A stretch of DNA of 64,000 bases from Verrucomicrobia bacterium LP2A. Lineage in GTDB: Bacteria > Verrucomicrobiota > Verrucomicrobiia > Methylacidiphilales > Methylacidiphilaceae. Location: NCBI GenBank assembly GCA_000526255.1, contig JAFS01000001.1, forward strand, positions 186,001 through 250,000. Reading direction: 5' to 3'. Of this stretch, positions 17,940 to 27,399 are shown piece after piece. Every line of letters begins with the position of its first letter. Within the stretch, counting starts at the first letter, position 1. The notes beneath the pieces were generated by a model. It ran no database searches and was not told the DNA's origin. It saw only the letters and a program-made list of their open reading frames with translations. A program made the position numbers and the translations under genes.

Positions 17940-18233
17940 ATGAGAAGGCTGATGATTGTACCCGCGCTGGCCTTCGCGATCGGACTGCCGAGCGCTTTTG
18001 CTGATGTGTCGGTGATGAACACCACGAAGGGCTTGCGGCTGACTATCCTTCCTGTGATGGGAGCGACTCGGGAGGAAGCACCGGCGCCGAAGGGCAAGGT
18101 CCGCGTCGAACCGGTAGCAGTCCACAAGGCAATCCCCGGACAGCCGGTCGCTCATGGTGCCAAGAACTCGAAGACGCGGCAGGCGTCTACGCGGCACAAG
18201 GCGGCTAAGCCGAGCGGGCGGAATAAGGGCTGA
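17940..18233 (+). CDS. Small basic secreted protein, copy 2
   Basis: A 97-residue protein with a signal peptide ending near SAFA-D. Its TTKGLRLTIL and APKGKVRV segments align with copy 1 in the same order. The rest is rich in Lys, Arg, Ala and His. The frame is open further upstream to 17826, but the signal peptide fixes the start at 17940; no strong ribosome site is seen. It is separated from copy 1 by 158 bases and converges with the DUF4242 gene. Function unknown. Confidence 0.6.
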   Translation: MRRLMIVPALAFAIGLPSAFADVSVMNTTKGLRLTILPVMGATREEAPAPKGKVRVEPVAVHKAIPGQPVAHGAKNSKTRQASTRHKAAKPSGRNKG

Positions 18234-18483
18234 TCAGATCCCGAATCTCGGAGATCCGATTCGCGGGAAAGCCCCCCTTTTGGGCATGCTCGCGGATCGC
18301 CTGCTCGCTGGGAGCCAGATAGACGCAGTAGATCTTGTCGTCGGTAACGTAGCTGTGCAGCCACTGGATTTGCGGACCCATCCCGTCCAGAACGGAGCAC
18401 GACTTTGCGGAAATTCCGGCGAGTTCCTTAGGAGAGAGTTTCCCAGCCGCGGGGATCTCTCGCTCAATGATATAGCGTGGCAT
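18205..18483 (-). CDS. DUF4242 family protein
   Basis: A 92-residue protein beginning MPRYIIEREIPAAG and containing WLHSYVTDDKIYCVYLAPSE and IREHAQKGGFPANRI. These are the hallmarks of DUF4242, a ferredoxin-like fold whose Streptomyces member SCO4226 binds nickel. The open frame continues far upstream, but family homology starts exactly at the ATG at 18483. Its 3' end overlaps the convergent secreted-protein gene by 29 bases. The biological role is unknown. Confidence 0.8.
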   Translation of the reverse strand: MPRYIIEREIPAAGKLSPKELAGISAKSCSVLDGMGPQIQWLHSYVTDDKIYCVYLAPSEQAIREHAQKGGFPANRISEIRDLISPYSARSA

Positions 18484-18728
18484 GATCTCGTAATCCTCCG
18501 TTGAGTCTTTCCCGCCTTCTCCCGAAGGTCGTCGACTACACTGTAGCGCCCCGGTGCCGTTGCTGGGCAAGCGTATTCTTGGCAGCGCGAAGTGCAGCGG
18601 AGCTCCGGATCGTCCATACGGGAGCGTGCTCCCGTGTCCGATTCGCCGGTGGATGTCCCCGGAGTCGGTTCCTCGCGATCTCCCGGCCTCCCGCGCATGA
18701 GCGGCACGCAGGAACAAATCCATGATTT
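18484..18728. other. Non-coding region upstream of the amt sigma-54 promoter
   Basis: No convincing gene is present on either strand. It holds two inverted repeats: CGGAGCTCCG at 18598-18607 and the 18-base repeat at 18618-18635. The region probably combines the promoter of the DUF4242 gene with an enhancer region for the sigma-54 promoter downstream. Confidence 0.5.
18618..18635. promoter_or_regulatory. Inverted repeat, candidate enhancer site for the sigma-54 promoter
   Basis: ACGGGAGC and GCTCCCGT form a perfect 8+8 inverted repeat with a 2-base centre. The centre lies about 130 bases before the predicted transcription start at 18756, where upstream activating sites of sigma-54 activators usually sit. 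It does not match the NtrC consensus, so the activator is unknown. Confidence 0.4.
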
Positions 18729-18745
18729 CTGGCACGCCGTTTGCT
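18729..18745 (+). promoter_or_regulatory. Sigma-54 (RpoN) promoter of the amt transcription unit
   Basis: The sequence CTGGCACG-N4-TTGCT matches every fixed position of the -24/-12 consensus, with the GG and GC dinucleotides 12 bases apart. The predicted start is near 18756, on the strand toward amt. Nitrogen control of ammonium transporters through sigma-54 is common, which supports the call. Confidence 0.75.
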
Positions 18746-18772
18746 TTTAATGGAGCCGCAGGAGGAAACGGG

Positions 18773-19024
18773 ATGAGCGGTTCGAGTAGGGGAGGAGTTG
18801 AGACTTTCTTGGCCGGACCAACCGAGGGCGTTCGTGGAGCCGCCCATTCGGCTGGATGGGCGGACCGAGAGGTCGCCATCGCTTGGAAAAAGGGACGTCG
18901 TGCTCTTGCTTGGCGCGCGCCGCGCTTCCTAGGGATTGGCTTTGGGACTTCCCCGCATTCATCCGGTAGGAACAGAAAACCGCATGCGGGCCTAGCCCCC
19001 GGGATCGCACCGCAGAAAGCGTAG
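18773..19024 (+). CDS. Possible 83-codon ORF in the amt leader
   Basis: The ATG follows an excellent AGGAGG site by seven bases, lies about 17 bases after the predicted sigma-54 start, and ends 27 bases before the chosen amt start, so the arrangement looks like an operon. Against this, third codon positions are clearly less GC-rich than in neighbouring genes, the product (Gly, Ala, Arg-rich) resembles no family I know, and it has no domain features. It may be a leader ORF, a decayed gene or chance. Confidence 0.3.
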   Translation: MSGSSRGGVETFLAGPTEGVRGAAHSAGWADREVAIAWKKGRRALAWRAPRFLGIGFGTSPHSSGRNRKPHAGLAPGIAPQKA

Positions 19025-19051
19025 CTCCCACAAGCAAAGGAGATGATTAGA

Positions 19052-20584
19052 ATGGTTGTCACTCGATTCAAACGCTGGTTGCTCATGCTCGTCGCCTGTC
19101 TGGCGATGGGCGGTGCTCTGCAGTCCGAAGCAAGAGCGGCGATACCCACGGTGGGTGGCGAGATCCTCAATTTGGCCTCGTGGCAAGCAATGCCCTTCTT
19201 CGCTGCGGAAGAGCCCAGCATAGAAGCGCGGCTAGCGGGGCTCGAGGCCTACATCCTCAACGGGGATCCTTCGGGAAGCAAGGTGAGCGGGGTGCCGGGA
19301 CCGGGGCACAACGCCTGGCTCATGACTTCCACGGCGTTGGTGCTCTTCATGACGCTGCCGGGCCTCGCCCTCTTTTATGGGGGGCTAGTTCGCTCCCGGA
19401 ATGTGCTGTCGGTCTTGGCCCAATGCTTGGGCATCGCGGGGCTCGTTACGATTCTCTGGTGGGCGGTGGGCTACAGCCTTGTCTTCGGCACGAGCTTCGG
19501 TCCAAGCGCGCTCGGGCCCTTCTTGGGCGGGAGCGAGTTCTTCTTCCTCAAGGGGGTGGACTCGACTCCCAATGCCGGATACTCGATCTGGGTTTCGCAG
19601 AACGTCTTCTGCATGTTCCAGCTCATGTTCGCGATCATCACTCCGGCTCTGATCCTGGGCGCGATCGCGGAGAGGATGAATTACGGGGCGTTGCTCCTTT
19701 TTCTCACGTTTTGGATGCTCTTCGTCTACTTTCCGCTCGCCCACATGGTCTGGGGAGGTACCGGCTTGATGAACGGCGCCTTCAATGCGGCGGCTCGGAT
19801 TCCCGCGGTTGACTTCGCCGGAGGCACCGTGGTGCACATGTCGTCGGGTTGGTCGGGATTGATCCTCTGCCTGCTGCTCGGCCGGAGGATCGGGTACGGG
19901 AAGGAGCCGATCCTGCCGCATAGCATGGTCCTCTGCATGGTGGGTGCCTGTATGCTCTGGATCGGCTGGTACGGCTTCAACGCGGGAAGCGCCGGAGCCG
20001 CGGACGGAATCGCGGCCAACGCGTTCACGACGACGACGCTGGCCACCGCGGTGGCTTCGTTCACCTGGGGGATGCTCGAATACGCCTTGAAAGGAAAGCC
20101 AAGCGTTTTGGGATTCAGCACCGGAGCTGTCGCGGGCTTGGTCTGCATTACGCCGGCCTGCGGATTCGTCGATTCGACGGGATCGGTGATCATCGGGGTG
20201 TTGGCCGCCGTGGTCCCCTACTTGGCATGCGTCAAGCTCAAGAAGGCTTTGGGATACGACGATGCGCTCGATGCCTTCGGAGTGCATGGGGTAGGGGGGA
20301 CTCTGGGAGCGTTTCTGACTGGTGTTCTTGCCACTGCCAAGGTCAACGGCAACCTAAGCAACGGAGCCGTGGCCGGAAAGAACGGACTAGCGGCACTCGT
20401 CAGTCATCACACGCTCTACTGGGCGCAGCTCAAGGCGATCGTCATCACGATCGGGTTGTCGGTGAGCATGACCGTAGTCCTGGCTCTGCTCGTGAAGCTC
20501 TTCGTCAGCTTGCGCGTGCCGGGCGAGATCGAAACGCAGGGCCTCGACACGGCACAGCACGGCGAGGAAGGCTACGCCATTTAA
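19052..20584 (+). CDS. amt: Ammonium transporter
   Basis: A 510-residue Amt/Mep-family inner-membrane channel with an N-terminal signal peptide (to about ARAA) and ~11 transmembrane helices. The twin pore histidines are H262 (GGTVVHMSSG) and H412 (FGVHGVGG), and the conserved DFAGG stretch precedes the first. An ATG at 19043 is in frame, but the AAAGGAG site at 19036-19042 abuts it and is nine bases from the ATG at 19052, which is therefore preferred. A sigma-54 promoter and a long leader precede it, and a strong terminator follows. No glnK is adjacent; a divergent PII-like gene lies 6 kb downstream. Confidence 0.94.
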   Translation: MVVTRFKRWLLMLVACLAMGGALQSEARAAIPTVGGEILNLASWQAMPFFAAEEPSIEARLAGLEAYILNGDPSGSKVSGVPGPGHNAWLMTSTALVLFMTLPGLALFYGGLVRSRNVLSVLAQCLGIAGLVTILWWAVGYSLVFGTSFGPSALGPFLGGSEFFFLKGVDSTPNAGYSIWVSQNVFCMFQLMFAIITPALILGAIAERMNYGALLLFLTFWMLFVYFPLAHMVWGGTGLMNGAFNAAARIPAVDFAGGTVVHMSSGWSGLILCLLLGRRIGYGKEPILPHSMVLCMVGACMLWIGWYGFNAGSAGAADGIAANAFTTTTLATAVASFTWGMLEYALKGKPSVLGFSTGAVAGLVCITPACGFVDSTGSVIIGVLAAVVPYLACVKLKKALGYDDALDAFGVHGVGGTLGAFLTGVLATAKVNGNLSNGAVAGKNGLAALVSHHTLYWAQLKAIVITIGLSVSMTVVLALLVKLFVSLRVPGEIETQGLDTAQHGEEGYAI

Positions 20585-26319: not shown

Positions 26320-26849
26320 GCTGGCGGATCGATGGCCGGAAGGCGGCAATTGTCCTGGTGGATGTTCAAGAGCGGCTGGCCGCTGCCGTCATCGGCGCGG
26401 AAGCAATCCTTGCGAAGATGGATCGTCTTCTCGAAATGGGAAAGCTCTTCTCGATTCCCGTTCATCTGACGGAGCTGGCTCCGCAGAGATTGGGCCCCAT
26501 TTCTTCGTCCATTCTGCAAAAGATCGGGAACGGCGGCTCGCGCGCCACGCGAAATTTCCTTTCGCCGAGCTCCGTGCTGCCCAAAGATCTACCGCAATTT
26601 CTCCTCGTCGCGGGAATGGAAACGCATGCGGCTGTCCGACAGGCGATCTATGACCTTCGCGAGAGAGGGCACGCGGTCTATCTTTTGGCCGACGCTGTCG
26701 GCTCCCGCAATGCCTTCGATCATCAGGTCGCCTTGGACGAGATGCGACAAGACCGCATCGTGGTCACGACGCTCGAAGCAGCGGCTTGCGAGCTCGGAGC
26801 CGAGGCGGAAGAGCCGCTTCTGGACAAGCTGCTTCCTCCGCTATCGTAG
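26316..26849 (+). CDS. Isochorismatase-fold protein lacking the usual Lys-Cys catalytic pair
   Basis: A 177-residue cysteine-hydrolase-like protein. It retains the LVDVQERL Asp and the later LLADAVGSRNAFDHQVALDEM segment typical of the YcaC/ISOC branch. The nucleophile position, usually THxCV, reads METHAAVRQ (Ala for Cys), and the usual Lys before the FS motif appears as Arg (ATRNFLS). It may be catalytically inactive or use another mechanism; isochorismatases proper also lack the Cys. It overlaps lysA by four bases (ATGA) and has GGAAGGGGGAG upstream. The substrate is unknown. Confidence 0.75.
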   Translation: MSWRIDGRKAAIVLVDVQERLAAAVIGAEAILAKMDRLLEMGKLFSIPVHLTELAPQRLGPISSSILQKIGNGGSRATRNFLSPSSVLPKDLPQFLLVAGMETHAAVRQAIYDLRERGHAVYLLADAVGSRNAFDHQVALDEMRQDRIVVTTLEAAACELGAEAEEPLLDKLLPPLS

Positions 26850-27281
26850 CGATTGCGCGGCGTCCGCTCGCAGCTTTGCGGGTCCATCCAGGATTGCGGC
26901 CCTCCTTGCCGGCTTCCCGTGGGGAGCGTCGATCGAGATCACGCGAAGCACAGGGCTGAGAAGAATCCGATCTTGCGGGCTTCGGATGCGGGCTTTCCGG
27001 AGAATCGTCTTCACTGCCGCAGGGACCAGATCGATAGGGAGAATCAACTCAATCTTTGTTTGAGGCAAGAAGTCGGGCAGATAGTCGTTGCCGAAGTAGC
27101 GTTCTACTTCTTCCGGTGCTTTTTCGAATCGTTTCACGCGACTCACCAGGGCTCCTTCGATCCCGTGGTCGGCGAGCGCGTCGCGGAGGTCGCCGAGGCA
27201 AAATCGGGGAATGACCGCCTCGACCTTTTGGAAAAGTCTGGTGGAAAGGACCGGGCCGTGCGCCGTGGGCTGATCCTGCAT
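26841..27281 (-). CDS. PII-like (GlnB-family) protein with altered nucleotide loops
   Basis: A 146-residue protein aligning with PII over residues ~18-130: FQKVEAVIPRFCLGDLRDAL, a T-loop ending YFGNDYLPDFLP (compare YRGAEYVVDFLP) and KIELILPIDLV. The tyrosine equivalent to the uridylylated Tyr51 seems kept, but the B-loop glycines that hold ATP (usually TGKIGDGKI) read IRSPQDRIL, and the C-terminus is extended and basic. Canonical PII senses 2-oxoglutarate and ATP/ADP and controls Amt and glutamine synthetase; this one may have lost that sensing. The ATG at 27281 follows GGAAG. It overlaps the convergent isochorismatase-fold gene by nine bases. Confidence 0.7.
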   Translation of the reverse strand: MQDQPTAHGPVLSTRLFQKVEAVIPRFCLGDLRDALADHGIEGALVSRVKRFEKAPEEVERYFGNDYLPDFLPQTKIELILPIDLVPAAVKTILRKARIRSPQDRILLSPVLRVISIDAPHGKPARRAAILDGPAKLRADAAQSLR

Positions 27282-27399
27282 GCTTCTTCCGAGCAAGCAG
27301 CTTGCGTGCCACTCCCGCAGGCGAAGACAAGGCCGCCTGGGTCGACCTTGCGAAGCCACGGGTTTTGCGGCAGACTAAGGGCATCAGAGTCGATTTCCT

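Follow-up and report, generated by a model that had tools for sequence, protein, structure and literature searches.

The stretch of DNA considered here (64 kb, hereafter the window) comes from a genome of the genus Methylacidimicrobium (Verrucomicrobiota) and carries amt, a gene for an ammonium transporter, which is separated by an intergenic region from a divergently oriented SCO4226-like gene. The features of this region, together with those of a second locus about 8 kb away that encodes a P-II paralog, are collected in Table 1. The assignment of Amt is supported by PF00909 and TIGR00836 scores above their cut-offs (405.6 bits for the latter), and its start is placed at 19052 rather than at the ATG at 19043, because three relatives lack the ATG at 19043, whereas all five genus members compared keep the one at 19052 and its Shine-Dalgarno sequence.

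Table 1. Features of the amt region and of the P-II paralog locus (window coordinates)
Feature	Position	Strand	Remarks
Divergent SCO4226-like gene	18208..18483	-	PF14026, 98 bits, E 3.7e-28; bounds the intergenic region
TTGC-N3-GCAA dyad, TTGCTGGGCAA	18560..18570		Best-conserved upstream dyad
8+8 inverted repeat, ACGGGAGC-GT-GCTCCCGT	18618..18635		Centred near -130
Sigma-54 promoter of amt, TGGCACGCCGTTTGCT	18730..18745	+	-24 TGGCAC, -12 TTGCT; exact consensus
Predicted amt 5' leader	18756..19051	+	296 nt, from distance to the -12 C
Invariant block, CCGCAGGAGGAAA	18756..18768	+	About +1 to +13; perfect Shine-Dalgarno; identical in 5/5 genus members
Upstream ORF	18773..19024	+	83 codons; start site conserved, body not; no Pfam match
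amt, ammonium transporter	19052..20584	+	510 aa; N-terminal signal-like segment; PF00909, 363 bits
Divergent P-II paralog	26841..27281	-	PF00543, 22.7 bits, just below the cut-off of 25
Second sigma-54-like site, TGGCACGCAAGCTGCT	27296..27311	-	Precedes the P-II paralog; assigned to the same proposed regulon

The sigma-54 promoter and its conservation

An earlier note on this DNA had claimed a promoter that fits the RpoN consensus at every fixed position, and this was borne out by direct reading of each of these positions. The full promoter reads CTGGCACGCCGTTTGCT, that is CTGGCACG-N4-TTGCT (18729-18745), with ten bases between the GG at 18731-18732 and the GC at 18743-18744, as in the consensus context at -24/-12; counting from C18744 as -12, the transcription start in this host is predicted at about 18756. 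Within the 2.47-Mb genome the strict pattern TGGCAYNNNNNTTGCW has six matches, versus one for the reversed control, and within the window it matches exactly at the amt promoter alone. All five Methylacidimicrobium genomes with a readable amt upstream region carry this promoter, and a longer query comprising the promoter and the beginning of the leader gave one match per genome, with no mismatches, in these five genomes, whereas its control never matched. This is a textbook -24/-12 site, and its conservation shows it to be real. The two remaining genus genomes have no amt match, or the 3' part of amt only. Genome G003 is 99% complete and has glnK and the P-II paralog, and the absence of an amt match from it is probably an assembly gap; in G005, a single-contig genome, the amt match (locus L024) lies in two frames with one in-frame TGA, reflecting either a frameshift or an assembly error.

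The promoter is also kept in a second genus, as TGGCAY-N5-TTGCT (listed as TGGCAT-N5-TTGCT) stands at a fixed distance from the amt ATG in five of five Methylacidiphilum genomes. A strict-pattern promoter was not found before amt in G008, and in three more distant relatives (loci L040, L067 and L077) the promoter is followed by glnK and amt as one operon. A search for a sigma-70 promoter within the leader of the present locus found none.

A check for rpoN and for NtrC-like genes, suggested in the earlier note, found rpoN at one locus in the genome (PF04552, 184 bits) and five full-length sigma-54 activators of the PF00158 family: NifA passes its curated cut-off, and the other four are response regulators. 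The nearest NtrC candidate (C2:167784) reaches 469 bits, below the TIGR01818 cut-off of 558.6. A further sigma-54 site, TGGCATAAAAGATGCT, lies about 100 nt upstream of glnK in the glnK-glnA unit and is identical in all seven genus members; here too the bases just past -12 and around +1 are conserved, without a Shine-Dalgarno sequence. Similar sites precede the P-II paralog, and RNA-seq of M. fumariolicum SolV gave amtB values of 294, 1082 and 391 RPKM, the highest in the nitrate chemostat, an approximately threefold increase with nitrate as the nitrogen source (PMC5623727).

Given the conservation of the promoter, the presence of rpoN and activators, the sites at glnK and the P-II gene and the SolV data, control of amt by sigma-54 in response to nitrogen is the natural reading for the Methylacidimicrobium host, with an NtrC-type protein as the presumed activator. 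A sigma-54 nitrogen regulon comprising amt, glnK-glnA and the divergent P-II gene is well supported by comparative sequence evidence, and our literature search found no paper mapping such a regulon in the verrucomicrobial methanotrophs. Searches on RpoN regulons in Verrucomicrobia, and on sigma-54 combined with leader peptides and amtB, likewise returned nothing relevant. The arrangement resembles the proteobacterial Ntr system, where the glnK-amtB operon is under sigma-54 and NtrC, in its -24/-12 promoter, in rpoN and NtrC-type activators, and in the placing of nitrogen genes behind the same promoter type. It differs in that amt stands alone, the canonical glnK being with glnA elsewhere, in the long leader, and in that our analysis found no NtrC-type binding site.

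The last of these differences bears on the activator site. The earlier note had drawn attention to a perfect 8+8 inverted repeat some 130 bases upstream of the predicted start, where an activator would bind. The repeat exists; its proposed role found no support, since in shuffles of these 568 bp under a Markov model a repeat of this kind turns up about 19% of the time, and since the repeat itself is poorly kept in relatives (exact here only, 7 of 8 pairs in the closest one, G004, degenerate in G001 and G006, absent from G005) and is missing at glnK and at the P-II paralog. The region holds a second 8+8 repeat at 18840-18863, inside the leader. The best-conserved upstream element is the TTGC-N3-GCAA dyad, which recurs at the amt loci of four of the five genus species at about -149 to -199 and could be an activator site or, alternatively, belong to the divergent SCO4226-like gene as its -35 region. 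A comparison of the amt, glnK and P-II paralog promoter sets revealed no activator dyad common to all three. Seven genomes share a strongly conserved block upstream of glnK (loci L149-L155), TTAGTKCGCACAATA-N3-TGTTATGTTAA, which lies about 180-220 bases before the glnK start site and has the variant TTACTG in G005. At another locus (L140) nifB adjoins nifA; the nifB promoter reads TGGCACGTTCTTTGCT, and upstream of it lies TGT-N10-ACA, the classical NifA site pattern.

The predicted leader, its invariant block and the upstream ORF

The leader of about 295 bases described in the earlier note comes to 296 nt from the predicted +1 to the amt ATG, and the corresponding leaders of the other genus members measure 234, 236, 257 and 296 nt. 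Between diverged species these leaders align at 52-72% identity, while the block CCGCAGGAGGAAA at their very beginning is invariant. It contains AGGAGG (18760-18765), so that the strong ribosome site claimed for the upstream ORF is indeed there, ahead of its ATG at 18773. In all five species an ATG follows this Shine-Dalgarno sequence, 7 bases on, or 10 in G001, where it lies three bases later. By itself the combination is weak evidence, as the window holds nine occurrences of AGGAGG-N4-10-ATG where five are expected by chance. A tiny ORF (MEPQEETG) from 18750 was rejected, since its first codon precedes the predicted +1 and G005 and G006 both lack this ATG. The notion that the leader is a relic of glnK, as might be imagined from relatives with the order promoter-glnK-amt, was also set aside, a comparison of P-II proteins with the leaders giving an unconvincing best E value of 0.12.

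We propose the following account, which we rate as an even call when taken as a whole. The amt gene would be transcribed from its sigma-54 promoter when nitrogen is limiting, through the action of an NtrC-type activator, and would belong to a small regulon together with glnK-glnA and the divergent P-II gene. The transcript would carry a leader of 234-296 nt, the first 13 nt of which would hold the conserved strong Shine-Dalgarno sequence, and ribosomes would start there on the upstream ORF, whose sequence and length would be unselected; it is the early loading of ribosomes, not a peptide or a riboswitch, that selection would keep. Such loading might protect the mRNA or serve coupling, or it might be a vestige of an ancestral gene that began right at the promoter. 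Translation of Amt would begin at 19052, where amt has a separate conserved Shine-Dalgarno sequence. The more pointed proposal, that the ribosome site at the 5' end is conserved for early translation itself, as a sequence-independent upstream ORF that makes the mRNA more stable or ties the output of Amt to translation, and that amt transcripts from the sigma-54 promoter may be leaderless in the sister genus Methylacidiphilum, is put forward tentatively and is on its own rather unlikely.

The close rival to early ribosome loading holds that CCGCAGGAGGAAA is part of the promoter, either as the initial transcribed region or as a site on the DNA for a regulator, and that the leader and its ORF are neutral. 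This is a substantial possibility, if one that we would not expect to prevail. Conservation runs nearly unbroken from -29 to about +13, bases around +1 are kept at glnK as well, in the absence of a Shine-Dalgarno sequence, and neither the ORF nor any structure in the leader is conserved, all of which would suit a promoter element. Against it, the block is a perfect Shine-Dalgarno sequence at a workable distance from an ATG in five of five species, including G001 with its shifted ATG. Early ribosome loading, with the peptide irrelevant, appears the most economical reading.

The earlier note had further suggested that the long leader could hold a regulatory peptide, and the 83-codon ORF on which this was based is present as described. 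Even so, a leader peptide with a regulatory or other function seems an improbable product of this ORF. The strong start site would fit such a peptide, as would the length of the ORF, at least 83 codons being reached in 3.6% of shuffled leaders, and in the pair G000 and G004 the changes by codon position (6/2/11) and a pN/pS of 0.39 are suggestive of coding, in a sample of 19 changes. The amt genes of the same pair, however, give a pN/pS of 0.09, and a BLOSUM-based test of the ORF frame yielded p values from 0.08 to 0.41, with scores not above those of shuffles. Moreover, the frame breaks in relatives, the outcome that the earlier note had named as refuting: the ORF has 83 codons in G000 and G004, stops after 42 in G001 and continues as far as amt without a stop in G005 and G006, and between G001 and G006 the changes by codon position are 22/17/22, with a frame shift. 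There is also no match to a protein family.

The same note had offered an RNA element as the other possible content of the leader, and such elements do exist at nitrogen genes of other bacteria. Apart from this precedent and the length of the leader, the evidence runs against a structured RNA regulator, whether riboswitch or attenuator, and we consider it very improbable. A search of Rfam with the leader gave no match at gathering or even at loose thresholds, predicted folding is slightly weaker than that of shuffles (z +0.90), and the covariation term from RNAalifold on the five leaders is unfavourable. The local hairpin formed by the repeat at 18840-18863 has mutations in G004, and deletions remove it from G001 and G006. 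Regulation by CsrA through the GGA motifs of the leader was rejected, as CsrA is absent from all seven genus genomes. Equally far-fetched is the idea that the upstream ATG is an alternative start for an N-terminally extended Amt, for although four of the five species have the upstream ATG in the reading frame of Amt, and this frame stays open through to the gene in G005 and G006, the ORF is interrupted by a TAG in G000 and G004, is out of frame in G001 and lacks a coding signal, and the start at 19052 has its own conserved Shine-Dalgarno sequence and a signal-like N-terminus.

Comparison with other amt loci, and the P-II paralog

The long leader had been called unusual, and this stands in comparison with Methylacidiphilum only; within the genus all five readable members have one, and another family of the order offers an example of about 270 nt. 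In Methylacidiphilum (loci L025-L028 and L035), and also at locus L059, the sigma-54 promoter puts the amt ATG at about +3 or +4, so the amt mRNA is predicted to be leaderless in five Methylacidiphilum genomes; a literature search on leaderless mRNAs in Methylacidiphilum found nothing relevant. The two genera share the gene and the type of promoter directly upstream of it, and differ in what follows the promoter, an ATG at +3 in the one and 234-296 nt of leader in the other. This contrast offers a case for studying the gain or loss of 5' leaders, and could also be used to test the effect of early ribosome loading. What the Methylacidimicrobium locus has in common with bacterial leader-peptide attenuators and upstream ORFs is an ORF that precedes the main gene and has a strong ribosome site; unlike them, it shows neither a conserved peptide nor a codon run, and no alternative hairpins.

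The divergent P-II paralog lies near amt in the other genomes of the family where both could be placed, and a divergent P-II gene with a sigma-54-like site was found in 11 family genomes. The site is kept at six of six genus loci, where it places the ATG at +5, so the transcript of the paralog is predicted to be nearly leaderless in these six genus members. The Methylacidiphilum copies have the sigma-54-like site as well, with leaders of about 27-36 nt. A non-canonical P-II protein tied to Amt may deserve separate study: the B-loop TGKIGDGKI is lost from the paralog, and the tyrosine aligned to Y51 is kept.
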